Assembly (NCBI RefSeq): GCF_002930645.1
Contig: NZ_PSNW01000002.1
Span: 372,001 to 436,000, forward strand
DNA length: 64,000 nt
Origin: Solimonas fluminis
GTDB taxonomy: Bacteria > Pseudomonadota > Gammaproteobacteria > Nevskiales > Nevskiaceae
Reading direction: 5' to 3'
Shown: piece after piece, positions 19,528-53,674 of the stretch
How the letters are laid out: every line of letters begins with the position of its first letter
Numbering within the stretch: the first letter of the stretch is position 1
The notes under the pieces: model-generated
Database searches by the model: none
What the model saw: the letters and a program-made list of their open reading frames with translations, nothing else
What the model was told of the DNA's origin: nothing
Program-made: the position numbers and the translations under genes

Positions 19528-19534
19528 CGCGACC

Positions 19535-19675
19535 GTTTTTGGGGAGTAGCGCCTCGCGCAAGCGAGGGGATGCGTCAACATACTTGGCCCTCATGGCCAT
19601 GGTGCATCCAGCCTTTCCGGCATGCGAGACCAAGACAGCCATGCTGCGCCGCCGGGCGCCTGCGTGGGTGTCTTG
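19535..19675 (+). ncRNA. yybP-ykoY manganese riboswitch
   Basis: The leader of the UPF0016 gene carries the diagnostic blocks of the yybP-ykoY class in order: TTTTGGGGAGTAGC (19537-19550), GTCAACATACTT (19574-19585) and GCGAGACCAAGAC (19624-19636). The class senses Mn2+ and usually controls Mn exporters. Directly overlapping the last block, CAAGACA (19631) pairs with TGTCTTG (ending 19675), with CCATGC/GCGTGG and GCGCC/GGCGC stacked inside. This long hairpin is the probable expression platform. It lacks a T-run and lies about 30 bases before the GTG start, so translational control is more likely than termination. Confidence 0.85.
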
Positions 19676-19707
19676 CGTCCATCTCGCGCCCGGCCGGAGT
19701 ATCCAAA

Positions 19708-41104: not shown

Positions 41105-41737
41105 ATGGCTACCAGCAGCGACCAGCGGCGACAGGCAGCGGCGGGGCTGGACCAGCTCGCCTCGCTGGTCCGCGCGCAGTCCTGGCGCAAGGACCTGCCG
41201 CCCACGCAGGCGGCGGTGCTGCGCGTGCTGGAAAGCGTTTCCGCCGGCCAGCGGGCACGGCAGCTGGCGGAGCGCCTGGGCATTTCGGCTGCCAGCCTCA
41301 GCGACTCGCTGAAGGCGCTGGAGGCCAAGGGCTGGATCGAGCGCCTGCCGGACCCGGCGGATGGGCGCGCGGCCATCATCCGCCTGAGCGCCCAGGGCAA
41401 GGCCCTGGCGCAGGAGCTGCTGGGCGGTGAGGGCGGCATGGCGGCCCTGCTCAAGCGCCTGGGTGCCGAGGACCTGGGGGCGCTGCTGCGCATCACGCAG
41501 CTGCTGGTGTTCGAGGCGCAGCAGCAGGGCCTGGCCAGCGGGCCGCGCACCTGCCTGGGCTGCCGCTTCTTCCAGCCCCATGCCAGCGGTGACCGCGACA
41601 AGCCGCACTTCTGCGGCTTCATCCGGAAGCCCTTCGGCGATCCCGAGCTGCGCGTGGACTGCGCGGAGCAGGAAGCGGGAACCAGGCAGCAGCTCGCCGC
41701 GAACGCGCGGCGCTTCAGGCAGGCGATGCCCGCCTGA
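41105..41737 (+). CDS. MarR family regulator with C-terminal cysteine cluster
   Basis: A 210-residue protein. Residues about 10-135 are a MarR winged helix (ARQLAERLGISAASLSDSLKALEAKGWIERLPDPADGRA). The extra C-terminus has four Cys, C150, C153, C170 and C186 (C-x2-C-x16-C-x15-C, GPRTCLGCRFF...HFCGF...DCAEQE). This pattern is suited to zinc or an iron-sulfur cluster and suggests metal- or redox-sensing. Ordinary MarR proteins are about 140-150 residues. ATG 41105 sits close after its promoter. No target other than itself is evident. Confidence 0.8.
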   Translation: MATSSDQRRQAAAGLDQLASLVRAQSWRKDLPPTQAAVLRVLESVSAGQRARQLAERLGISAASLSDSLKALEAKGWIERLPDPADGRAAIIRLSAQGKALAQELLGGEGGMAALLKRLGAEDLGALLRITQLLVFEAQQQGLASGPRTCLGCRFFQPHASGDRDKPHFCGFIRKPFGDPELRVDCAEQEAGTRQQLAANARRFRQAMPA

Positions 41738-41945: not shown

Positions 41946-41973
41946 GGAACCTTTTCCCGCGCCCATTCGTGTA
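41946..41973 (+). promoter_or_regulatory. ECF-type promoter A (upstream of the sigma gene)
   Basis: GGAACC (41946-41951) and CGTGTA (41968-41973) with exactly 16 bases between, and TTTTCCC following the -35. Identical hexamers and spacing occur at 42503 and 46480. GGAAC-type -35 with CGT-type -10 elements are characteristic of ECF sigma factors. This indicates autoregulation of the gene starting at 41982. Confidence 0.78.
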
Positions 41974-41981
41974 TATAACGT

Positions 41982-42548
41982 ATGGTCTCCCTGATCCCCT
42001 TCCCGGGCCGAGCTGCCGCCGCCGGGCGTTTTGAGCGCCTGTTGCGGCCTCAGCTATCGGGGATGTACCGGCTGGCCTATCACCTGACGGGCTCCCGCGA
42101 CGATGCCGAGGACCTGGTGCAGGAGGTCTGCACTCGCCTCTACCCGCGCCTGGAGGAACTCGAGAAGATCGAGGTCCTGGGGCCCTGGCTGGCCCGGGTG
42201 GTCTACAACCAGTTCGTCGACCAGCGGCGCCGGCGCGACAACAGTCCGGTGGAATGCGTCGGCGAACTGCCCGAACAGGCCTCGGAACTGCCGGGCCCCG
42301 AAGAACTCACGGACTCCCAGCTGCAGCAGGAGCACATCCTGCAGGCGCTGTTCCGGCTGTCCGACGAGCACCGTGCCCTGATCGCCTGGCACGACATCGA
42401 GGGTTATACGCTGGAAGAGCTGGCCGGCCGCGAGGGCCTGGCGATCGGCACGCTCAAGTCCCGGTTGCATCGCGCCCGGGCGCATCTGCGAAAGCTGCTG
42501 GGGGAACCATTTTCCCCTGCCATCCGTGTAAGGGAAACAGGAGACTGA
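41982..42548 (+). CDS. ECF RNA polymerase sigma factor
   Basis: A 188-residue ECF sigma factor. Region 2 is at about residues 25-95 (MYRLAYHLTGSRDDAEDLVQEVCTRLYPRL...ARVVYNQFVDQRRRR). Region 4 is at about 120-170 (FRLSDEHRALIAWHDIEGYTLEELAGREGLAIGTLKSRLHRARAHLRKLL). The start is only eight bases after the -10 of promoter A and has no Shine-Dalgarno, so its mRNA is probably leaderless. The last codons contain promoter B. A zinc anti-sigma gene follows directly, and the signal is presumably an envelope cue. Confidence 0.9.
   Translation: MVSLIPFPGRAAAAGRFERLLRPQLSGMYRLAYHLTGSRDDAEDLVQEVCTRLYPRLEELEKIEVLGPWLARVVYNQFVDQRRRRDNSPVECVGELPEQASELPGPEELTDSQLQQEHILQALFRLSDEHRALIAWHDIEGYTLEELAGREGLAIGTLKSRLHRARAHLRKLLGEPFSPAIRVRETGD
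42503..42530 (+). promoter_or_regulatory. ECF-type promoter B (inside the sigma gene, before the anti-sigma gene)
   Basis: GGAACC (42503-42508) and CGTGTA (42525-42530), 16 bases apart, with ATTTTCCC after the -35. It lies inside the 3' coding end of the sigma gene. The start would fall about 12 bases before the anti-sigma GTG, after which AGGAGA serves as ribosome site. It gives separate, sigma-dependent expression of the downstream genes. Confidence 0.75.
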
Positions 42549-42549
42549 C

Positions 42550-43218
42550 GTGGACTGTTCCGACTTCCGCTCGCAACTCGACGAATATCTGGACGGCCGG
42601 CTGGTGGCCGGCCACGAGGCCTGCGTGCGCCACCTGGAGGGTTGCCCGGATTGCAGGAGTCGCGTCGCGTCGGAACGGCGCCTGCGCGAGGCACTGAGGC
42701 AACTGCCTACCCCGATGCCGCGGGGCTCATTCGAAGACCGAGTGTTGCGAACCGCCATGCGGGCGGCACCCAGCCCGCGACGCGGAGCCTGGGTCCGCTA
42801 TGCCGCTGCGGCGGCACTGCTGCTGGCGGTGGCGGGCGGGATTCTCTCGTTGCGGATGCCGCCGCAGGCGGAGGCGACGCTGGCCACCGTGCCGGCGGGC
42901 GGCCACGCCGAGCCTCGTACCGTACGCCTGGTGCTCACCGCGCCGCGCGCCCTGCCGGGTGCGCAAATACGCCTGGAGTTGCCCGACCACAGCGAGTTCG
43001 CGGCCTACAAGGGACAGCGCGTACTGGAGTGGACCGCCGATCTTGTCGAGGGCCCGAACCTGCTGGAAGTGACCATCCATGGCCCGGGCAAGGGCGTGGC
43101 GCTGGCCACGGTCAGCTACCGCGGTTCGCAGCGGACACTGCCGCTCCCGCTGGAATCCACCGCGCAGACCCGTACCCGAAACGAGCCCGAACTTTCCTCG
43201 GAGTACCAGCATGCCTAG
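42550..43218 (+). CDS. Zinc-binding anti-sigma factor
   Basis: A 222-residue transmembrane anti-sigma factor. The N-terminal ZAS domain has H28-x3-C32-x2-C35 (HLEGCPDC). A transmembrane helix is at about 80-98 (YAAAAALLLAVAGGILSL). The periplasmic domain of about 115 residues is beta-rich (VRLVLTAPRALPGAQIRLELPDHSEF) and would sense the signal. The GTG start is two bases after the sigma stop, with AGGAGA upstream. The last eight bases overlap the lipoprotein gene. It is expected to hold the ECF sigma factor inactive at the inner membrane. Confidence 0.85.
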   Translation: MDCSDFRSQLDEYLDGRLVAGHEACVRHLEGCPDCRSRVASERRLREALRQLPTPMPRGSFEDRVLRTAMRAAPSPRRGAWVRYAAAAALLLAVAGGILSLRMPPQAEATLATVPAGGHAEPRTVRLVLTAPRALPGAQIRLELPDHSEFAAYKGQRVLEWTADLVEGPNLLEVTIHGPGKGVALATVSYRGSQRTLPLPLESTAQTRTRNEPELSSEYQHA

Positions 43219-44101
43219 CTATAAGAATCCGCGAGCCCTGCCGGCTGCCGTTGTCCTCGCGGCGGCGCTTGCCGCCTGCGGTGGGGGCGGCGGCAGTGGC
43301 GATACAGGGACGGTCAATCTTGGAGTGACCGACGCGCCGGTCGATTCCGCGACCGCCGTGGTCGTGGAGTTCTCCGGGGTGGAGGCCAAGCCGCAGGGCG
43401 GTCGCGCGCTTTCCTTCGATTTCCCAGCGCCGCGCCAGATCGATCTGCTGGCGCTGCAGGGCGGCGATAGCGCCTTGCTGCTGGAGGGCGTGGTGCTGCC
43501 CGCCGGCCCCTACGAGTGGCTGCGCCTCAAGGTCAATGCCGGGCGGGAGGCGTCGGACTCCTACATCGACCTGGATGACGGCAGCCGCCATGCGCTGTTC
43601 ATTCCCAGCGGCAACCAGAGCGGCCTGAAGCTCAATGGCGGCTTCACCGTGGCAGCCGACACCACCAGCAATTTCACCATCGACTTCGACCTGCGCAAGT
43701 CGGTGCACAACCCCGCGGGCCTGGATGGGGACTACATCCTGAGGCCTTCGCTGCGCATCGTGGACGACAGCAAGGTGGGGACCCTGGCCGGCACGGTCGG
43801 CGCGGAAAGCCTCGCCGCCGAGAACTGCACCCCGGCGGTCTATGTCTATAGCGGTGCGGGCGTCACGCCCGATGACGAAGGTTCTGCTGCCGCTCCGCTG
43901 AGTAGTGCTTCACTGACCCTCGATGCCGAGAGCGGTGACTACCGCTACGTCGTGGCGTACCTGCCGGTCGGCAGCTATACCGTGGCCTTCACCTGCGACG
44001 CGGCCGATGATGATCCGGCGACCGAGGATGTGCTGGCCTTCTCCGCACCGGCGGATGCCGTGATCGTCGCGGGCCAGACCACGACCGTCGATTTTCCCTG
44101 A
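43211..44101 (+). CDS. DUF4382 lipoprotein
   Basis: A 296-residue lipoprotein: signal peptide with lipobox LAAC, followed by a glycine linker (GGGGGSG), then a DUF4382 domain (VNLGVTDAPVDSATAVVVEFSGVEA ... FDLRKSVHNP...YILRPSLRIVDDS). A C-terminal beta-sandwich with carboxypeptidase-like repeat character follows (GTLAGTVGAESLAA...YLPVGSYTVAFTCDA). The location is probably the outer membrane or cell surface. The function of DUF4382 is unknown. It is translationally coupled to the anti-sigma gene. Confidence 0.82.
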   Translation: MPSYKNPRALPAAVVLAAALAACGGGGGSGDTGTVNLGVTDAPVDSATAVVVEFSGVEAKPQGGRALSFDFPAPRQIDLLALQGGDSALLLEGVVLPAGPYEWLRLKVNAGREASDSYIDLDDGSRHALFIPSGNQSGLKLNGGFTVAADTTSNFTIDFDLRKSVHNPAGLDGDYILRPSLRIVDDSKVGTLAGTVGAESLAAENCTPAVYVYSGAGVTPDDEGSAAAPLSSASLTLDAESGDYRYVVAYLPVGSYTVAFTCDAADDDPATEDVLAFSAPADAVIVAGQTTTVDFP

Positions 44102-44156
44102 AGCCCGGGTTTGGATTGACATACAGTCTGCCCTGAGTTGAAGCTAAGGAGTGTCC

Positions 44157-44816
44157 GTGCGCAAGATCATGTTCGCCCTCGCCATCGCAGCCGGCCACTT
44201 GGCCAGCGCGGTGGCGCGTGCCGAAGATCCACTCGAAGGCCTCGAGATGGATGTGATCGAGCCCGGCGAAACCCCGACCGGAGGAATGTTCCGCATCGCC
44301 CTGCCGGGCGCATCGAGCCCCCATTCCGGCAAGGACGGGCAGGGGCAGTCGGCCTCTGCCCCGGGCCGCGAGCGCGGCAACGGCAACGGCCTCGGCAACA
44401 GCTTTGGCCAGGACACAGCCGAGCAGGCGCGCAGCCAGCACGGCAATTCCGGCCGCGGAGGCGGCAAGGGCCCAGGCAACAACAACGGCCAAGGCCCCGG
44501 AAACAACAACGGCCAGGGGCCAGGCAACAACAATGGACAAGGGCCAGGCAACAACAACGGCCAGGGCCCGGGCAATAACAACGGCCAAGGCCCCGGAAAC
44601 AACAACGGCCAGGGGCCAGGCAACAACAATGGACAAGGGCCAGGCAACAACAACGGCCAGGGTCCGGGCAATAACAACGGCCAAGGCCCCGGAAACAGCA
44701 ACGGCCAGGGTCCGGGAAGCAACAATGGACAAGGTTCGGGCTCGAACAATGGCAACGGCAACGCCAAAAGTCAGGCCCCCATTGGCGGCAATGACAAGCG
44801 GGGTGCGCGGCGCTAA
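44157..44816 (+). CDS. Exported Gly/Asn-rich GPGNNNGQ-repeat protein
   Basis: A 219-residue protein with a signal peptide (RKIMFALAIAAGHLASAVARA), a short unique segment (EDPLEGLEMDVIEPGETPTGGMFRIALPG), and then a long low-complexity region dominated by about eleven copies of the octapeptide GPGNNNGQ. The end is NAKSQAPIGGNDKRGARR. The GTG at 44157 was chosen because AAGGAG lies five bases upstream. It is likely an extracellular or surface structural protein, perhaps cargo of the barrel protein encoded next; that is inference. Confidence 0.75.
   Translation: MRKIMFALAIAAGHLASAVARAEDPLEGLEMDVIEPGETPTGGMFRIALPGASSPHSGKDGQGQSASAPGRERGNGNGLGNSFGQDTAEQARSQHGNSGRGGGKGPGNNNGQGPGNNNGQGPGNNNGQGPGNNNGQGPGNNNGQGPGNNNGQGPGNNNGQGPGNNNGQGPGNNNGQGPGNSNGQGPGSNNGQGSGSNNGNGNAKSQAPIGGNDKRGARR
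44461..44760 (+). repeat. 24-bp tandem repeats with a 96-bp higher-order unit
   Basis: The GPGNNNGQ codons form 24-bp units with distinct synonymous spellings. Four consecutive unit types beginning at 44489 recur in the same order at 44585, exactly 96 bases later, so a four-unit block was duplicated recently. Later units drift (GNSNGQ, GSNNGQ, GSGSNNG). Confidence 0.85.
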
Positions 44817-44825
44817 TCTCGGCGC

Positions 44826-46148
44826 ATGACAGTGTCAGCCCAGGAACGAGACTTCCCAAGCCAGCCTGCATTTCCACCTGTCGGCTGGTTTTTTTTGCGC
44901 CCTGTGCTGCTGGCGCTCGCCCTGCTGGGCAGCATTCCGGCGCGCGCGGGTGCGCCCGAGGACTATGCGGCCGGCGTGAAGGCCTACCGCGCCGGCGAAA
45001 CCGAAGAGGCCCTGCGGCTGTTCCAGGGTGCCTTCGCCGCCGGCCTGGCGACGCCCACGCTGCGTTTCAATATCGCTCTTTGCCAGTACCGCCTGCGCCG
45101 CTATGCCGAGGCGCAGGAGCAGTTCCTGAGCCTGACCCGCGACGAGGACTTCAGGGCTGCGGCCGAGTATCACCTGGGCCTCATTGCCTTCCAGCAGGGC
45201 CGCAGCGACGACGCCCTGCAGCACCTCAACACGGCGCAGGCCCTCGACCCGATCCTGGAGGATCGAGTCGACCTGGCGCGCGCGCGCATCACCGGCCGGC
45301 CGGAATCGCCGACCACGTCCTGGTACCTTCGCGCCATGGGGGGCTACGACAGCAATGTGGAACTCGTACCGGATGACGAGGCCCTGGGCCTGTCGCCGCG
45401 TGCCGACGGCTTCTCGGAGGCGCTGGGCAGTATCGAGCACCGGCGCGGCGCCTGGCGCTATGGCGGTTCGCTATACCAGCGCAGCTACTTCCAGCTCGAT
45501 GACAGCAACCAGCTTGGCCTCCAGCTGAACGCCTCTCGCAATTTCATTGCCGGACGCTGGGCCTTCGAGCTCGGCGGCGGCGGTTCCGCCGTGCGCCTGG
45601 GCGGCGAGCGTCTGCAGGAACTTGCCGGCCTGCAGTTCAGCGGCCTGTACCGCGGCAGCGGGACGTGGCAGCCGCGCATCGGCCTGGGCGTGGATCATGT
45701 CACGGCCCCCGAGCGCTTCGATTACCTGGAAGGCTGGCGTGCGCGGCTGGAGCTCTCCGCCATCGCCAGCCGCTTCTTCGCCAGCTATGCGCTGGAGTAC
45801 AACGACCGCGAAGATGAGGCGTTAGGCGACGAGTTCTTCAGCCAGTCGCCAGTGCGCCATGGCTTGTACGCCGCCTGGCAGCCCACCTGGTTTGCCCCGG
45901 TGGAGACCGAGATCGTTGCCGAGTTGCGCTACAGCCGCTATGCCGACGAAGACCTCTACCAGGATGGTACGGAGCTGCGCAGCGAACGCCGCGAGGAAAT
46001 GCTGGCGGGGCTCGGGCTCTACCTGCGGTTCCCCTATACGCTGGGACTGAGGCCGCGCCTGGGAATCTTCGCCTCCAGCAATCGCAGCAGCATCGAAGCC
46101 CTGGAGTACGAGAAGCTGGAGCTTACCGGGGGCTTCGAGTACTTCTGA
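44826..46148 (+). CDS. TPR plus outer-membrane beta-barrel protein (Slam/DUF560-like arrangement)
   Basis: A 440-residue exported protein. After a signal peptide (hydrophobic core about 22-40, ending PARAGA) come three to four TPR-like helical repeats (about 45-155, YAAGVKAYRAGETEEALRLF..., HLGLIAFQQGRSDDALQHLNTAQALDP). A beta-barrel (about 165-440) starts at MGGYDSNVEL and ends in an aromatic F (GGFEYF), as outer-membrane barrels do. Length and architecture resemble surface lipoprotein assembly modulators (Slam, DUF560), which export neighbouring lipoproteins or soluble proteins. The DUF4382 lipoprotein and the repeat protein upstream are possible clients. Membership in DUF560 is not proven. 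Confidence 0.7.
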   Translation: MTVSAQERDFPSQPAFPPVGWFFLRPVLLALALLGSIPARAGAPEDYAAGVKAYRAGETEEALRLFQGAFAAGLATPTLRFNIALCQYRLRRYAEAQEQFLSLTRDEDFRAAAEYHLGLIAFQQGRSDDALQHLNTAQALDPILEDRVDLARARITGRPESPTTSWYLRAMGGYDSNVELVPDDEALGLSPRADGFSEALGSIEHRRGAWRYGGSLYQRSYFQLDDSNQLGLQLNASRNFIAGRWAFELGGGGSAVRLGGERLQELAGLQFSGLYRGSGTWQPRIGLGVDHVTAPERFDYLEGWRARLELSAIASRFFASYALEYNDREDEALGDEFFSQSPVRHGLYAAWQPTWFAPVETEIVAELRYSRYADEDLYQDGTELRSERREEMLAGLGLYLRFPYTLGLRPRLGIFASSNRSSIEALEYEKLELTGGFEYF

Positions 46149-46479
46149 CCCGGTGTCGGCAGCACCGACTGCCCCAGCCTGAGTGCCGGCGATCCGCAGG
46201 CCCATGGTCCGGCTGTGTCCTGCCCTCCCAGGGCCGAAGCGGGCCCTGCACCCCGACGCCCGGCACCCCCCCCCGCTGAATCCGGGGCCCGCCATGCCCG
46301 GCGCAGCCTCCGCGGGGCGCTCCTAGCCCAGGATTCTTCGCCGCCGATGCCGCAGCCGGTCCACCGGGGCTTCCCACTGGGCTGACCGGAGCCTCCGGAC
46401 GTTCGCCGTGGCCCCCTACCCGGTTCGCCCCCGTGCCCTGGCTCCGCTCTCCGTTTGCCGCCCCATGCGAGCAGCCGAT

Positions 46480-46507
46480 GGAACCTTTTTCCCTTTCCGT
46501 TCGTGTA
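46480..46507 (+). promoter_or_regulatory. ECF-type promoter C (orphan, upstream of minor pilins)
   Basis: GGAACC (46480-46485), TTTTTCCC, and CGTGTA (46502-46507) with 16 bases between, the same as promoters A and B. It points towards the pilE-fimT operon, whose first start codon is about 510 bases downstream. No gene begins nearer, so it drives either a long leader or an RNA. Confidence 0.65.
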
Positions 46508-46639
46508 GCTGGATACGGGCAAAAGCCTCAAGGGCTTTCATCCGGGGGCTCTGTCGACCGGGTTGGCGCGCGCAAAGCGTTCGGGTCCGGTGGACAGATG
46601 GGGGGATTGCAAGCTTATTTTCTGTAGAGTGATTAAAAA

Positions 46640-46830
46640 TATCAGGACAAATACCGTTCTCATGAAAAATGAGGGCGAAAGTACTTACTTTGTCCGTATT
46701 TAAAGCCTAGTCAGCTGCATAAGAATTGCTCTCATTGCGACAAGAAAGGAAAGCATGGTCTAAGGCTTTAAAGACCGGGAACGCCCGCCAGTGGCGAGTT
46801 CATGGAACTGCTAAAACGATAATACTTCTC
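46640..46830 (+). ncRNA. Candidate structured RNA or leader
   Basis: Nested inverted repeats are visible. GGACAAA (46645) pairs with TTTGTCC (ending 46695), enclosing CTCAT-GAAAA-ATGAG. TTTAAAGCCTAG (46699) pairs with CTAAGGCTTTAAA (ending about 46772). GAAC...CGCC-AGT-GGCG...GTTC forms a hairpin near 46778-46800. Several unpaired GGA triplets occur. The AT-rich composition differs from the whole surrounding region. It may be a small RNA or the 5' leader of the pilin operon; no known family was matched. Confidence 0.4.
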
Positions 46831-47020
46831 ATCATCCAGCAAACCGAAAATTAAGTCGCGATACTTCAACGGTATTCGTTATCTTTCCAGATGAAAGGCA
46901 CTGGAAATGTGATTAAATGGATGGCGGCTGACTGTCAGGATCGGTGGATCGGGGGCTAGACTCTGCCGACCTGGGTAAAGCAGCAGGGATGTGGGGGTAA
47001 ACCTGGCTTTGGGGGAAGGC

Positions 47021-47416
47021 ATGCGGCGGCGCATCTTGGGCGTGACACTGATCGAACTGGTGGTGGTCGTGGCCATCATCGGCATCCTGGCGGCCATCGC
47101 CTTGCCCAGTTACCAGAGCTTCGTCATTCGCGGCCGGCGAGCAGAAGCCAAGACCGAGATCATGGAAATCGCCAACCGGGAGCAGCAATTCCTGCTGGCA
47201 CATCGCGCCTATGCTTCCAAGGCGGAGATCGAGGGCAGCGGGTACGCCCTGCCCAGCACACTGACCCCGTACTACAGCTACAGCATTACGGTGGGGTCCA
47301 CGGGAGCGCCATCCTTCCTGATCACCTTCACCCCGAGCGGCGCCCAGGCATCGGACGGGCCGCTGACCTTGAATCACCAGGGCATCAAGACCCCGGCGGA
47401 CAAATGGAAGAAGTGA
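47021..47416 (+). CDS. pilE: Type IV minor pilin, PilE-like
   Basis: A 131-residue prepilin. The leader MRRRILG is followed by the cleavage/methylation motif [23 protein letters not shown], with V instead of the usual F at +1 and E at +5. The helix then leads to a small globular domain ([18 protein letters not shown]...FLITFTPSG) of the PilE/ComP-like minor pilin type. It is inserted in the inner membrane and processed by PilD. It is the first gene of the minor pilin operon; its end overlaps pilV by 13 bases. Confidence 0.85.
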
Positions 47417-47970
47417 AGGCCTCTCCTCTGCGTCAGTCCGGCACCACCATGATCGAGGTCCTGGTGACGCTCATCATCGTGTCGATCGGACTGCTGGGCC
47501 TGGCGCAGCTGCAGTCCAAGATGCAGCTGTCGGACATGGAGGCCTACCAGCGGGCGCAGGCGCTGATGCTGGTGAAGGACATGGCCAGCAGCATCGCGGC
47601 CAACCGGAAGGCGGCGGCCAGCTATGTCACGACAGCCCCGCTAGGGGCGGGCATGACGTGCCCGGTCCCATCGGCGATTCCCACTCGGCAGGAGCGCGAT
47701 CGCGCTCAGTGGTGCCGCTTCCTGCAGGGCGTTGCAGAGCGACAGAACACAACGGATCGGGGAGCCATGATCGGCGCACGTGGCTGCGTTACGGCCCTCG
47801 GAGGAGATGCCTACCTGGTGACGGTTGCATGGCAGGGGCTGCTCCCCATTGCCGCGCCTCCCGCAGGGGTCGCCTGCGGTGCCGGACAATACAACGACGG
47901 TGCGGCCTGCACCAGCGATCGCTGTCGCCGTGTGGAAACCATGGTCGTGCGGCTCGGCACATTGATTTGA
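47404..47970 (+). CDS. pilV: Type IV pilus modification protein PilV
   Basis: A 188-residue minor pilin. The prepilin-like segment is [26 protein letters not shown]. It carries the PilV pattern ETM/IEVLV with a GLLGLA turn, followed by a globular domain with paired cysteines. It forms part of the priming complex at the pilus tip with PilW, PilX and PilY1. The start overlaps the pilE end. Confidence 0.85.
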
Positions 47971-48008
47971 GTGTGCGACCAGGCACGGCTCGCGCGATGG
48001 GCGCTCTC

Positions 48009-49460
48009 ATGAAAAAAGCAAAAAAAATTTCGGGCTTCACCATAGTCGAGCTCATGGTGAGCATGGCGATATCGCTTGTGATCCTGGGGGCTCTCGTCTC
48101 GCTGTTCGTCAGCACCTCGCGCGTGAGCAGCGAGATGGCCAAGGTCAGCGGCCTGATCGAGAACGGGCGATTCGCAGTCCAGATCATCGAAAGCGACCTC
48201 GTGCATGCCGGGTACTGGGGAGGATATGTTCCTCAATTCGACGATCTCGGTTCAGTCGGGGTTCCCAATGACGTGCCCACCGCCGTGCCGAACCCTTGCA
48301 CGACCTACGCCAATTGGGACCGGAACTTCCGGATCAACCTGATGGGAATTCCAGTGCAGGCCTGGGGGGCCACCATGCCCAGCGGAGCCGGCTGTGCTGC
48401 GTTTCCCGCGAAACGGGCCGGCACCGACACCCTGCTGGTGCGGCATGCCGATATGTGCATCGCTGGTTCGGCCAATTGCCCGCAAGTAGCAGGGCGTCTC
48501 TACTTCCAGAGCCCATTGTGCGACACCCAGCGAAACGCGGCAGCGCTCCAGCAAGTCGCCTCGGTGGATGCCGCTTTCAATCCCAACAACATCGTGTTCA
48601 CCCCCGCAAGCTCGAGCAGCACCGATGATGCCTACGTCGGCATGATGCTGCGGACCTCCGGCGGCACGGGGGCCGGGCAGTACCGGTTGATAACGGACTA
48701 CGACGGCAGCAGCCGCACCGCCGCCATCAGTCCGAACTGGAGTCCAGCGCCCAGCGTGGACATCTACTCGAACCCCACGACCTACTCGTTCGAATATCTC
48801 CTGCGCCCCGCAGCTTCGGCGACGGAAGTGTTTCCGCTACGCCAGGGAAATTGCCTCACGGCAGCACCGATGCGGCGCTACATATCGAACATCTACTACG
48901 TCACGGATGCCAGCCATCCGGACCGGCCGGGAGAGACCATTCCCACCCTGGTCCGCTCCCAGTTCGACGGAAGTTCGGGGGCCGTACAGCAGGCACCGGA
49001 AATGCTGGTCGAGGGCATCGAGCAGTTCCGAATCGAGTTAGGCATCGATGACACGATGACGCGTTGTTCGCCCGCGACGGCGGTCAACTACGGGGCCGCC
49101 CGCAGCAATGTCGAGCCTTCAACCTGCACCTCGAACGCGGGCAACAGCTACGCCAACACGCTGCCGATCAATCGGGGCGACGGCGCTCCGGACCGGTACA
49201 AGCGCTGTACCGACGCGAATCCCTGTACGGCACAGGAACTGGCCAATACGGTCAGTGTCCGCATCTACGTGCTGGCACGCAGCCGCGACCAGACCCCCGC
49301 CTACACCGACGCGAAGTCGTACTGCCTCGGTGAGCTCTCGGGTGCCGGCACCTGTCCGGCGGAAAGCCTCGTGCCTGCCGCCAACGACCACTATACGAGG
49401 CATGTATTTGCCAGCACGGTGCGGCTTGTCAACGTCTCCGCGCGCAGGGAAACGCCATGA
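48009..49460 (+). CDS. pilW: Type IV pilus assembly protein PilW
   Basis: A 483-residue minor pilin, larger than usual. The leader MKKAKKISG precedes FTIVELMVSMAISLVILGALVSLFV. The long globular domain has several cysteines (for example NPCTTYANW, CAAFPAKR, CIAGSANCP). ATG 48009 gives a normal nine-residue leader; ATG 47997 adds four residues. It is a component of the pilus-tip initiation complex. Its last four bases overlap pilX. Confidence 0.85.
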   Translation: MKKAKKISGFTIVELMVSMAISLVILGALVSLFVSTSRVSSEMAKVSGLIENGRFAVQIIESDLVHAGYWGGYVPQFDDLGSVGVPNDVPTAVPNPCTTYANWDRNFRINLMGIPVQAWGATMPSGAGCAAFPAKRAGTDTLLVRHADMCIAGSANCPQVAGRLYFQSPLCDTQRNAAALQQVASVDAAFNPNNIVFTPASSSSTDDAYVGMMLRTSGGTGAGQYRLITDYDGSSRTAAISPNWSPAPSVDIYSNPTTYSFEYLLRPAASATEVFPLRQGNCLTAAPMRRYISNIYYVTDASHPDRPGETIPTLVRSQFDGSSGAVQQAPEMLVEGIEQFRIELGIDDTMTRCSPATAVNYGAARSNVEPSTCTSNAGNSYANTLPINRGDGAPDRYKRCTDANPCTAQELANTVSVRIYVLARSRDQTPAYTDAKSYCLGELSGAGTCPAESLVPAANDHYTRHVFASTVRLVNVSARRETP

Positions 49461-49987
49461 TCCGATCGTCGAAATCCGCGCAGCGGGGTGCCGTGCTGGC
49501 CGTGGGCCTGATCATGCTGGTCATGATCACGCTCGTCATCGTGGGCTCGTTCTCCATGAGCTCGGTGAATGTCAAGGCCGTGGGCAACATGCAGACCCGC
49601 GACGAGGCGATTGCGGCAACGAACGAAGCGATCGAAAGGCTCATCAGTTCGACGACGGATGGTTCGGGCACCACGGTGGACTTCACGACCAACCCCATCG
49701 CGCAGGGCTACAACATCGATATCGACAACGACGGCACCTCCGACTATCAGGTGAACTTCGCCGCGCCAGCCTGCCTGACCGCCGCGCAGGTGGCGGCGAC
49801 CAATCCGCCGCCCAGCAGCATCATCCTGGGCGACTCCTTCAATGTCGTCGCTGCAAATTACTTCCGCTCCGTATGGGAGCTTGTCGCAACCGCGACCGAC
49901 CTGCGCAACAGCGGGGTCTCGGTGCGAATACACCAGGGCGTGGTCGTACTGATCAACCAGGCGCGTCGCACCGCGTCCTGCCCCTAA
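49457..49987 (+). CDS. pilX: Type IV pilus minor pilin PilX
   Basis: A 176-residue PilX-type protein. The N-terminus RSSKSAQRGAVLAVGLIMLVMITLVIV is typical of PilX (QRGA(A/V)L...), with Gly at the processing site but without the Glu at +5 of major pilins. A small globular domain follows. It is coupled to pilW (ATGA). It works with PilV, PilW and PilY1 in priming pilus assembly. Confidence 0.83.
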   Translation: MIRSSKSAQRGAVLAVGLIMLVMITLVIVGSFSMSSVNVKAVGNMQTRDEAIAATNEAIERLISSTTDGSGTTVDFTTNPIAQGYNIDIDNDGTSDYQVNFAAPACLTAAQVAATNPPPSSIILGDSFNVVAANYFRSVWELVATATDLRNSGVSVRIHQGVVVLINQARRTASCP

Positions 49988-50003
49988 CCGACGGGAATCT
50001 GTC

Positions 50004-53000
50004 ATGAATGCACGCATTCTGAAGACTGTAGTGACTATCGCCCTGGCTTGTGTGCCGTGGGTGTCCTCGGCCGAGGACATCGACCTGTTTACCGGAGCCA
50101 CGCCCCCGAGCGGAGCCAACCTTCCCAACGTCTTGTTTGTCGTGGACAACACCGCAAACTGGACACAGCCGTTCACGAACGAAATGTCGGCCCTGGCGCA
50201 GACATTCGCCGGAATGCCGGAGAACAAGTTCCGCGTCGGCATCATGTTCGCGACGGAGACCGGCGGGTTCGACAACAATGTCGGCGGTGGCTACGTCCGT
50301 GCGGCGGTGCGCACCATGGACAACGCCAACAAGCTCAAGTACCAGACCTTGATCAATGCTCTCGATGTCGGCTACGACAAGGGCAATGCCGGCTTTTCGG
50401 GCGTGCAGATGGCCGAGGTGTACCGTTACTTCAGCGGCGGCGCGCCTTATGCGGGAAACCAGAAGGCGAAAACCGACTATACCGGCAATGCCTGTTACGA
50501 ATGCCAGAAGCAGATGACGGCAGCCCAAAAGTCCGCCAATGCAGCGGTCTATGCCCTGAGCGGCAATGCCCTGAACTCGAAGAACGCCACGGCCTACAAC
50601 TCTCCCGTTCCGACCGCCAACTGTGCTCCCAGAAACTACATCATCTACATCAGCAATGGTCCCAATCAGGAGGCGGCAGCGCAGGACGCCATCGCGAACA
50701 ACATGCTGACGCAGGCCGGGGGAGCGACGAGCATGATCCCGCTTTCCCCGAACGGTTCGCAGGAAAACCCGGCGGACGAATGGGCACGCTTCATGAAGCA
50801 AAGCCCTCTTGGGGTAACCACATTCACCATCGACGTCGATCCGGTGACCAATGGCCAGGGGCCGGGCTGGACGGCCCTGCTCAAGAGCATGGCCAACGTC
50901 AGCGGCGGCAAGTACACCGCGGTAAGTTCCGGCGCCGGCTCCAGCGCGATCGTCGATGCGATCAACGACATCCTCTCGCAAATCCAGTCTGTGAATACTG
51001 TTTTCGCGTCGGTCAGCCTGCCTGTCAGCGTGAACACGCAGGGCAGCTACCTGAACCAGGTCTATGTCGGCATGTTCCGTCCGGATGGCAATGCCCTGCC
51101 CCGGTGGACCGGCAACCTGAAGCAATACAAGCTGCAATTGGATGGAGACCAGTTGCGACTGGTCGATGCTACCGGTTCGCGGGCGGTGAATACGTCCACG
51201 GGCTTCATTACCGAGTGCGCCCGCTCCTACTGGACCCCCAGCACCATCGACGCCTACTGGACCTTCAAGCCACTGGGTAATTGCATTGCTCCTGCGGGTC
51301 AACCCGTCGATTACTACAAAAATTCCAACAGTCCCGACGGCAACGTGGTGGAGAAGGGCGGACAGGCTTATGTCCTGCGCCAGGCAAGTCCCACGGCGCG
51401 TCAGCTCAAGACCTGCAGCAGCGCCTTCTCGTCTTGCCAGACCACGCTGACGAACTTCGATACGGCCAACTCGGCGCTCACGAGTTCGGACCTGTCGGCG
51501 ACCGTCGCCTCTCCTCGCGATGCCCTCATCAACTGGGCGCGCGGCAATGATGTACAGGATGAGAACACCAACGCCAACTACACCGAAGCGCGACCCTCGG
51601 TGCATGGCGACGTCGTGCATTCACGGCCTGTCGCCGTGAACTTCGGCACTGACGCCTTGCCCAAGATCAGCGTGTTCTACGGCGGCAACGACGGAATACT
51701 GCGATCCATCAACGGCAACCGCAGCGGGTCCATCGGCTCGGTGCCGGCCGGCGGCGAGATGTGGGGCTTCCTGCCTCCCGAGTCCTACCGGCTCATCCGG
51801 CGCAATTACGAGAACACGGAGCAGATCAGCTATCCGGGCATCACCGGCGCGCCGAAGGCCTATGGCCCCGATGGTCCGGTGTCCAGCTATGCCGACGGCA
51901 GCAATCGCTGGATCTACGCGACGATGCGGCGTGGCGGCCGGGTCCTGTACTCGTTCAACGTCGGTTCCTCGAACCAGGCCGATGTCACGTTGAAATGGAA
52001 GCGCGGTTGTCCCAACCTGACCAACGACAGCGGCTGCGATACCAGCGACACTTCATGGAGCCGCATCGGACAGACCTGGGCCGCCCCGGTGGTGGCAAAG
52101 GTCGCGGGCTATGGCAACGGCAGCTCCCCGGTTCTCTTCCTGAGCGGCGGATACGATACCTGCGAGGATGCCGATCCGCGGGCCTGCAGTTCGAGCCGGA
52201 AGGGCAACATCGTCTATGTCCTGAATGCCGACACCGGGTCGGTGCTGACCACGTTCAACACGGCGGCAGGCGTGATCGCCGACGTGGCGGTTGTCCCCGA
52301 TGCGGTTACCGGCCTGGCCACCTACGCGTACGTGGCCGACCTTGAAGGCAATATCTACCGGATCAACATGGGGACGCAGGCGCCCTCGGCCTGGACGATC
52401 ATCAAGATTGCCTCCCTGGGCTGCAGCACGGCGGCCAGTTCCTGCACCGCGGGGCGCAAGTTCATGTTCACACCGGACGTCGTGCGCAGCGGCGACGAAT
52501 TCATCCTGCTGCTGGGCTCCGGCGATCGCGAGAAGCCCTTGCTGCAGTACAGCAGCGCGGCGTCTGTCGAGAATTACTTCTTCATGCTGCGCGACAAGCC
52601 CACGGATGCCAATTGGCTGGCGAACGAGCCCAGCAGCTGCAATGGAACGATCTGCCTCGGCTCGCTGATATCGATCCCAAGCGGGTCGACTACCGCGCCT
52701 ACGCCTGCCCAGCTGGCGAGCAAGAAGGGCTGGTACCTGGGCCTGCGTGCGACCGAGCAAGTGGTTACGGCGTCCCTGACCATCTTCGGCACGGTCAGCT
52801 TCAGCACCCACCAGCCTCAGCAGCCCAGTGCCAATGCCTGCACGAGCGCGCTGGGTACTACGCGCCTGTACAGCCTGTCCTACAAGGACGGTTCACCGGG
52901 GCAGGGCCAAACCGAGCGCTCTGCTGTGCTGCCGCCTGTTGGGTTGCCGCCGTCCCCGGTGGCCGGCATCGTCAAGCTGGATGACGGGCGCCTGGAAGCC

Positions 53001-53111
53001 TTCTGCATCGGCTGCGACAAGGACTCTCCGCTGGAGGCCAAGCGGCCGCCGTTGCCGTCCCTCTCCCTGCCGCGTGAACCTCGGCGACGGCTCTTCTGGT
53101 ACATCGAATGA
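50004..53111 (+). CDS. pilY1: PilY1-type pilus-tip adhesin
   Basis: A 1035-residue exported protein. A signal peptide (cleavage after VSSA, about residue 23) precedes a von Willebrand A-like N-terminal part (NVLFVVDNTANW ... RNYIIYISNGPN ... TFTIDVDP). The C-terminal half is the PilY1 beta-propeller (KISVFYGGNDGILRSINGN, GGRVLYSFNVG, YVADLEGNIYRINMG). It acts as pilus-tip adhesin and regulator of extension and retraction. It is the largest gene in the operon; the stop overlaps the upstream alternative start of fimT. Confidence 0.9.
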   Translation: MNARILKTVVTIALACVPWVSSAEDIDLFTGATPPSGANLPNVLFVVDNTANWTQPFTNEMSALAQTFAGMPENKFRVGIMFATETGGFDNNVGGGYVRAAVRTMDNANKLKYQTLINALDVGYDKGNAGFSGVQMAEVYRYFSGGAPYAGNQKAKTDYTGNACYECQKQMTAAQKSANAAVYALSGNALNSKNATAYNSPVPTANCAPRNYIIYISNGPNQEAAAQDAIANNMLTQAGGATSMIPLSPNGSQENPADEWARFMKQSPLGVTTFTIDVDPVTNGQGPGWTALLKSMANVSGGKYTAVSSGAGSSAIVDAINDILSQIQSVNTVFASVSLPVSVNTQGSYLNQVYVGMFRPDGNALPRWTGNLKQYKLQLDGDQLRLVDATGSRAVNTSTGFITECARSYWTPSTIDAYWTFKPLGNCIAPAGQPVDYYKNSNSPDGNVVEKGGQAYVLRQASPTARQLKTCSSAFSSCQTTLTNFDTANSALTSSDLSATVASPRDALINWARGNDVQDENTNANYTEARPSVHGDVVHSRPVAVNFGTDALPKISVFYGGNDGILRSINGNRSGSIGSVPAGGEMWGFLPPESYRLIRRNYENTEQISYPGITGAPKAYGPDGPVSSYADGSNRWIYATMRRGGRVLYSFNVGSSNQADVTLKWKRGCPNLTNDSGCDTSDTSWSRIGQTWAAPVVAKVAGYGNGSSPVLFLSGGYDTCEDADPRACSSSRKGNIVYVLNADTGSVLTTFNTAAGVIADVAVVPDAVTGLATYAYVADLEGNIYRINMGTQAPSAWTIIKIASLGCSTAASSCTAGRKFMFTPDVVRSGDEFILLLGSGDREKPLLQYSSAASVENYFFMLRDKPTDANWLANEPSSCNGTICLGSLISIPSGSTTAPTPAQLASKKGWYLGLRATEQVVTASLTIFGTVSFSTHQPQQPSANACTSALGTTRLYSLSYKDGSPGQGQTERSAVLPPVGLPPSPVAGIVKLDDGRLEAFCIGCDKDSPLEAKRPPLPSLSLPREPRRRLFWYIE

Positions 53112-53140
53112 GGAGCCCTCTGAATCCGCGAGTTTCCGCC

Positions 53141-53674
53141 ATGTCCCGAAAAGAGCCGGCGCGTGGATTCTCGCTGATGGAACTGCTCATCACCATCGCC
53201 GTCATCGGGATCCTGATGGGTATCGCCATCCCTTCCTTCCGGCAGGCCGCCCTTGCCTCCGAACTGCGAGCGACCGCGAACAGCCTGCTGGTCGCCACCG
53301 TCGCGGCCCGCAGCGAGGCCATCAAGCGCAACGCGGTTGTCGCGCTGTGTCCGTCCTCCAATGGCAGCAGCTGCGGCGGGACATGGGAGCAGGGCTGGAT
53401 CGTCAGTTGTGCCACCAGCGACAACATCAACTGCACGGCGGGAGGAAGCAACCGCCTGGTGCTGCAGGCCGAGGGCAGCGCCGCCGCGGGCGTCCGGGTC
53501 ATCGCCCAGGGAGGAGCTACGACCCTGAACTTTGATCCTACGGGAGCCGCTGCAACGGCGCAGGTGTTCAAGATCTGCCGGGAGCGTCCGCTGGGCAACC
53601 AAGAGCGCGTGCTGACGCTCACGGCCACCGGCCGGGGCAGCATCACCAAGACGACCACCGGCGCCTGTCCGTAG
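53141..53674 (+). CDS. fimT: GspH/FimT family pseudopilin
   Basis: A 177-residue prepilin. The leader MSRKEPARG precedes FSLMELLITIAVIGILMGIAIPSFRQ, followed by a GspH/FimT-type beta domain with four cysteines. ATG 53141 gives a nine-residue leader; ATG 53108, overlapping the pilY1 stop, would give twenty. FimT homologues bind DNA at pilus tips in some bacteria; this has not been shown here. Confidence 0.85.
   Translation: MSRKEPARGFSLMELLITIAVIGILMGIAIPSFRQAALASELRATANSLLVATVAARSEAIKRNAVVALCPSSNGSSCGGTWEQGWIVSCATSDNINCTAGGSNRLVLQAEGSAAAGVRVIAQGGATTLNFDPTGAAATAQVFKICRERPLGNQERVLTLTATGRGSITKTTTGACP

Follow-up and report, generated by a model that had tools for sequence, protein, structure and literature searches.

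We read a 64,000-nucleotide stretch of Solimonas fluminis DNA (contig NZ_PSNW01000002.1, positions 372,001 to 436,000; hereafter the window, with coordinates counted from its first letter) as carrying an autoregulated extracytoplasmic function (ECF) sigma/anti-sigma switch that controls a small envelope or export cassette. From the sequence evidence, we put the probability of this reading at about 0.85. In dozens of related species one and the same rare promoter element precedes both the sigma gene and the gene for its inhibitor, so that the cassette very probably turns its own expression on and off.

The element, GGAACC-N16-CGTGTA, occurs as an exact match three times on the plus strand of the window, at 41946-41973 (P1), 42503-42530 (P2) and 46480-46507 (P3). 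An earlier sequence-only reading had placed these sites before the sigma gene, before the anti-sigma gene and beyond the barrel gene that ends the cassette, and the coordinates agree. P1, the putative promoter of the sigma gene, ends 8 nt ahead of the sigma ATG. P2, a putative intragenic promoter for the anti-sigma gene and the operon behind it, lies in the last sigma codons, starting 42 nt ahead of the end of the final one, and is followed by a Shine-Dalgarno (SD)-like AGGAG and then the anti-sigma GTG. P3 lies 332 nt past the barrel stop codon. The same reading described the three promoters as identical; this is correct for the boxes and the 16-nt spacing, but the spacer sequences differ.

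The element is rare. Across the 4.67 Mb genome, with spacers of 15-17 nt allowed, there are three exact matches, namely P1, P2 and P3, all within 4.6 kb, and the reversed pattern used as a control matches once. This exact-pattern search found no fourth site, and thus no sign of a large regulon elsewhere in the genome. A 28-bp consensus that included spacer positions, allowed up to three mismatches, added one genomic place, weak and unrelated. We also scored the window with a matrix built from 115 sites in relatives, leaving the window's own sites out. Its consensus is (A)(T/G)GGAACC-TTTT-N12-CGTGT(T/A)A, so that, of the TTTTCCC tract first noticed after the -35 box, TTTT is kept across relatives but CCC is not. 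P1, P2 and P3 score 31.7, 25.3 and 32.4 bits with this matrix, and the runner-up in the 64 kb scores 6.7 bits.

The element is also conserved. Our relatives are 80 sigma loci, mostly from gammaproteobacterial metagenome-assembled genomes (counts of 81 include the window), which form 41 clusters at 70% sigma identity; at each we looked for GGAAC-N(16-18)-CGT. The pattern lies upstream of the sigma gene, at the P1 position, in 51 of 81 loci (24 of 41 clusters), where shuffled windows predict 0.25 loci. At the junction of the sigma and anti-sigma genes, the P2 position, it is found in 68 of 81 loci (36 of 41 clusters), with 1.3 loci predicted. The reverse-strand control gives six and zero loci at the two positions. 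Among close orthologues from the same taxonomic order (51-38% identity), three genomes have the element both before sigma and at the junction, and two more have it at the junction only. Moreover, in 274 gammaproteobacterial genomes, drawn evenly and scanned with a consensus pattern picked from the relatives, there were seven matches as against none for the reversed control, and six of the seven are the sigma/anti-sigma junction of this same system. The sequence-only reading had named random genome-wide frequency and absence from orthologous loci as grounds for dropping its proposal; neither is what we found. A chance origin of the motif is ruled out by the genome counts, the matrix scores, the shuffles and the 274-genome scan.

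Because P2 falls within the last codons of the sigma gene, conservation of the encoded peptide had to be excluded. If P2 merely reflected a conserved C-terminal peptide of the sigma factor (E-P-x5-R-V), it would be no promoter and the anti-sigma gene would be transcribed from P1 only. Indeed, GGAAC stands in the sigma frame and encodes EP...RV in 29 loci. However, it is placed in frame 1 in 19 loci, in frame 2 in one and past the stop codon in a further 20, so 20 loci have it inside the gene in another frame. That its place differs between species, with two main frames and positions past the stop codon, indicates that the DNA is conserved and not the protein. In one relative (G006) the spacer is 15 nt and the encoded peptide has changed, yet both P2 boxes are retained, and the codons CGT and GTA in the window's P2 are in the minority among the genes counted. 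Conservation at the protein level alone is rejected by the changes of frame and spacer, and we consider a P2 that is no promoter very improbable.

The genes fit an ECF switch. The sigma gene (41982-42548, +) encodes 188 residues with Sigma70_r2 and Sigma70_r4_2 domains above gathering score, the size (about 180-200 residues) and region 2 plus region 4 composition of an ECF factor. As far as sequence can tell, it is autoregulated, with the motif before its own gene and conserved in orthologues. The adjoining gene (42550-43218, +) encodes a protein that falls within the zinc-binding anti-sigma (ZAS) class. It has a zf-HC2 domain above cut-off, with the motif HxxxCxxC at residues 28-35, and structure prediction gives zinc-finger helices, a transmembrane helix (residues 82-100) and a periplasmic beta-sandwich (residues 123-201). 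HxxxCxxC is present in 69 of 73 relatives. The protein would bind and inhibit the sigma factor. Structure comparison of the periplasmic domain returned generic Ig/MG-like beta-sandwiches only, with low TM-scores.

Three further genes follow on the plus strand. The first (43211-44101) encodes a DUF4382 lipoprotein, with PF14321 (E 7.6e-36) behind a lipobox (LAAC) and poly-Gly after the Cys. The second (44157-44816) encodes a small exported protein in which GPGNNNGQ occurs as nine repeats; the open reading frame (ORF) was listed from 44151, but the GTG at 44157 is a better fit to the AAGGAG. We found no consistent Pfam family for this Asn/Gly-repeat protein, which is a member of a small-protein family with a GLEMDV/DLDVT core (the DLDVT proteins). 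The third gene (44826-46148) encodes a tetratricopeptide repeat (TPR) domain followed by a 14-stranded outer-membrane barrel, as judged by an AlphaFold model and profile matches. From sigma to barrel, neighbouring genes overlap or are separated by at most about 55 nt, and a single operon is therefore possible. The DUF4382, repeat-protein and barrel genes each lack a copy of the motif and so would rely on readthrough from P2; P3 cannot drive the barrel gene because it lies downstream of it.

This arrangement recurs. Among the 58 loci with more than 4.5 kb of downstream sequence, 55 have the anti-sigma gene and 53 the TPR-barrel downstream, with the barrel upstream in three more. A small exported protein, recognized by a regular expression for a DLDVT(M/I)xV or GLEMDV core with a low-complexity repetitive tail, follows the anti-sigma gene in 55 of 80 loci, and the same core can be seen by eye in several others. 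The conserved cassette is thus sigma factor, anti-sigma factor, small exported DLDVT protein and TPR-barrel.

The DUF4382 lipoprotein is outside this core, yet it joins repeatedly. In two relatives (L038 and L041) a DUF4382 gene is divergent from the sigma gene and has its own motif, and in a third (L028) one lies nearby with the motif. Another genome (G004) has a cassette without DUF4382, and at a distance of about 2.4 Mb from it the motif (26.8 bits) precedes a DUF4382 gene. This gene was the only one to resemble a window protein among the 16 off-locus exact matches that we inspected in relatives. By comparison, the motif is present at none of 23 DUF4382 loci examined from sigma-negative genomes. 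Next to the sigma gene of one relative (L062:4872-6320, -) we also noticed a DUF5666 lipoprotein gene with a divergent motif of 24.9 bits, a possible further member of the regulon.

We propose the following mechanism. The transmembrane zinc-finger anti-sigma factor would hold the sigma factor until an envelope signal releases it, and the sigma factor with RNA polymerase would then recognize GGAACC-TTTT-N12-CGTGT(A/T)A. Firing of P1 would produce more sigma factor, a positive feedback, and the mRNA would have its 5' end at the AUG or right beside it. Firing of P2 would produce an SD-led mRNA for the anti-sigma factor, the DUF4382 lipoprotein, the small repeat protein and the TPR-barrel, and so provide negative feedback together with the output. 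The sequence itself shows the sites, how well they are conserved, which genes are present and how the products are predicted to fold; promoter activity, the leaderless start, release by a signal and surface export are all steps that we infer. The sequence-only reading had proposed that the five gene products form one self-amplifying envelope system. Conservation of the four-gene cassette and the motif-linked DUF4382 genes of other genomes support a single system, but it would be self-limiting as well as self-amplifying, because its own inhibitor sits under P2.

The sigma mRNA is predicted to be leaderless, given that 8 nt separate P1 from the sigma ATG. If transcription starts about 6-9 nt after the -10 box, as is general for ECF promoters, the 5' end would lie at or beside the AUG. 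Relatives share this geometry: in 30 of 51 loci, and in 16 of 24 clusters, the first in-frame ATG follows the end of the -10 box (CGTNNN) at a distance of 5-11 nt, and the most frequent distance, 8 nt, is that of the window. This count took ATG starts only, and a few GTG alternatives exist. In S. meliloti, the mapped leaderless mRNAs all start with AUG (PMC3616915).

The barrel protein is the candidate exporter. Its AlphaFold model (mean pLDDT 89) has TPR helices at residues 43-156 and 14 strands at residues 163-439, the architecture of the Slam (DUF560) proteins of type XI secretion, in which an N-terminal periplasmic TPR domain precedes a 14-strand barrel (SlipAM) (PMC8406197). Slam proteins are likewise encoded with lipoproteins or small exported proteins (PMC8406197). 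Unlike them, the window barrel is below the curated Pfam cut-offs and is predicted to be ECF-controlled: TPR_Slam gives 22.4 bits against a cut-off of 35.2, which leaves the protein outside the curated Slam family. SlipAM is detected at E<=0.01 in 7 of 37 relatives, and in one of them (L024) reaches 19.5 bits against a cut-off of 22. Of the cassette proteins scanned, none showed a TbpB-like cargo domain. Because the Slam profiles match weakly and below cut-off, we describe the barrel as Slam-like in architecture and not as a proven Slam. Its most likely role is to move the small protein, the lipoprotein or both to the cell surface, a proposal that, taken by itself, we hold at somewhat less than even odds.

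A plausible competitor, though one that we also hold to be short of an even chance, is that the barrel exports no protein and serves instead as an ordinary porin or for polysaccharide export of the BcsC/PgaA kind. The top Foldseek match is indeed BcsC, a cellulose exporter, followed by OmpG; the best matches to the barrel by VIA-align are CymA and OmpG (Z about 20, 3.4-4.3 Å over 230-270 residues); and the BBP2_2 profile matches 21 of the 37 relatives. Nevertheless, the conserved cassette members include no polysaccharide gene, conservation links the barrel to a small exported protein and, in repeated cases, to lipoproteins, and several members do give Slam or SlipAM matches, weak as these are.

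Several points weigh against the switch as we have drawn it. The P1 pattern has no match in 30 of the 81 loci. A second group of about 20 loci with P1 has leaders of 15 to more than 100 nt, and the leaderless design is therefore common and not universal. In five sigma-positive genomes (G049, G028, G019, G025 and G043) the motif is absent at the DUF4382 homologue examined. Surface export, finally, is the weakest step of the mechanism, resting on architecture and on sub-threshold Slam matches.

Some relatives depart from the window in other ways. In L043 and L057 (L043:8674 and L057:8675, +) a strong motif (31.7 and 32.0 bits) precedes the sigma match by about 330 nt, so some relatives may have a sigma mRNA with a long leader, or a small gene in this interval. 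In L058 (position 3947, -) a motif of 26.8 bits precedes another sigma-like gene, which is encoded on the opposite strand about 1.6 kb ahead of the sigma gene; this suggests a paralogous sigma factor under the same element. The seventh match of the 274-genome scan (L134; genome G345, contig C3, 245617) adjoins no recognisable sigma or anti-sigma gene.

Autoregulated ECF/anti-sigma pairs are already known, as are T-runs in ECF spacers. With the known ECF/ZAS pairs the window shares a protein of sigma regions 2 and 4, an adjacent zinc-finger transmembrane anti-sigma factor and a GGAAC/CGT promoter before the sigma gene. What sets it apart is that a second copy of the putative promoter lies within the 3' end of the sigma gene, that the sigma mRNA is predicted to be leaderless and that the regulon is linked to a small exported protein and a TPR-barrel. 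SigAb of Acinetobacter baumannii also has a very small direct regulon that includes its own gene, a CGT-type -10, a four-T run in the spacer and tolerance of 16-17 bp spacers (PMC12153292). However, SigAb is described as Acinetobacter-specific, and it uses a GTCAAC -35 and a CGTT -10, the regulators AabA and AabB, and relA and the small RNA (sRNA) SabS as its other direct targets (PMC12153292); with GGAACC and CGTG, the window element is not of the SigAb type. In Bacillus, a homopolymeric T run in the spacer contributes to promoter choice by ECF factors (Gaballa et al. 2018, in the account given by PMC6767563). The likeness there is the T run between the -35 and -10 boxes, a promoter feature by which alone we set a system from a different phylum beside the window. 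RpoE/RseA has in common with the window a GGAAC-type -35, a membrane anti-sigma factor and envelope outputs, but the window -10 is CGTGT(A/T)A and not TCAAA-type, and its regulon is tiny and local as against more than 100 genes. A profile scan of the window anti-sigma factor found zf-HC2 and no RseA domain, which sets the pair apart from RpoE/AlgU systems.

ECF sigma factors are abundant and many have no known targets, whereas here the promoter, regulon and partners can be read from sequence. This uncharacterized sigma family spans the Gammaproteobacteria and some contigs labelled beta- or deltaproteobacterial, and it may already carry an ECF group number. We found no description of the promoter pair, or of its link to a DLDVT protein, a TPR-barrel or DUF4382, in a literature search that did not extend to the ECF group catalogue. 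No paper was found that joins DUF4382 with "sigma factor", and a text search with GGAACCTTTT gave unrelated papers only, among the matches listed. Nor did the literature sources searched describe a role for DUF4382 lipoproteins or small DLDVT proteins, and the cassette offers a route to the function of both. A sigma mRNA without a leader and an anti-sigma promoter inside the sigma gene, both predicted, make a testable design that would set positive against negative feedback. A bolder reading, which we regard as improbable, is that this is a widespread and apparently undescribed ECF-controlled surface-export system with a leaderless sigma mRNA and a hidden inhibitor promoter, in which the anti-sigma beta-sandwich senses the state of Slam-like export. 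If the beta-sandwich did sense export, for example as a backed-up small protein or lipoprotein, export demand would set the gain of the switch.

What P3 does is less clear-cut. It is the top-scoring site in the window, and it probably drives an extra transcript that is non-coding or belongs to the pilin operon downstream. The roughly 0.5 kb after it (46508-47020, +) is partly AT-rich and holds no convincing gene, and is a candidate sRNA or long leader. Within it, 46630-46780 (+) is an AT-rich non-coding stretch amid GC-rich surroundings with a strong predicted hairpin (46630-46705, z -4.3). P3 could be an active sigma promoter for an sRNA or leader RNA at 46514-46780, as SigAb is for SabS. Its score, the lack of a convincing ORF, the fold and the published precedent of an ECF sigma factor with an sRNA target (PMC12153292) make this possible, with the odds against it: the DNA after P3 is not conserved in the family and no terminator-like site was seen between P3 and the pilin genes. 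An Rfam search of the stretch returned nothing at threshold and two weak matches at chance level, and a known riboswitch or RNA family is rejected.

The missing terminator would suit a different role, in which P3 brings the adjoining minor-pilin operon (47021-53674, +) into the regulon. These genes are the next downstream and on the same strand, but their leader would be about 0.5 kb, and in relatives no pilin gene was detected beside the cassette or at off-locus motif matches. Membership of the operon is unproven and, in our view, unlikely. It encodes ComP/PilE-like, PilV, PilW, PilX, PilY1 and FimT-like proteins; PilW, PilX, PilY1 and FimT were named from gene order and prepilin-type sequence and not by family match. 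Alternatively, P3 is what remains of the ancestral promoter of a small secreted-protein gene, one that once followed the barrel and has been lost here. In four relatives the motif lies 27-29 nt past the barrel stop and precedes the gene of a small acidic secreted protein; in a further two, motif-like sites past the barrel are followed by a different small secreted protein. An unused relic would not be expected to be intact and to score highest in the window, and we find this origin doubtful.

The locus is variable within the genus, since in two same-genus genomes the upstream marR is kept and DNA similarity ends at 41724-41725. Three same-genus genomes have no sigma orthologue at E<=1e-25. The pilE-like gene of the minor-pilin operon is about 36% identical to a second copy in the same genome (contig C6), and same-genus genomes have only distant pilE-like copies, 35-39% identical. 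Elsewhere in the window, at 19529-19700 (+), a yybP-ykoY manganese riboswitch scores above the Rfam gathering threshold directly before an ORF from about 19702, the product of which looks like a TMEM165/GDT1-type membrane protein.

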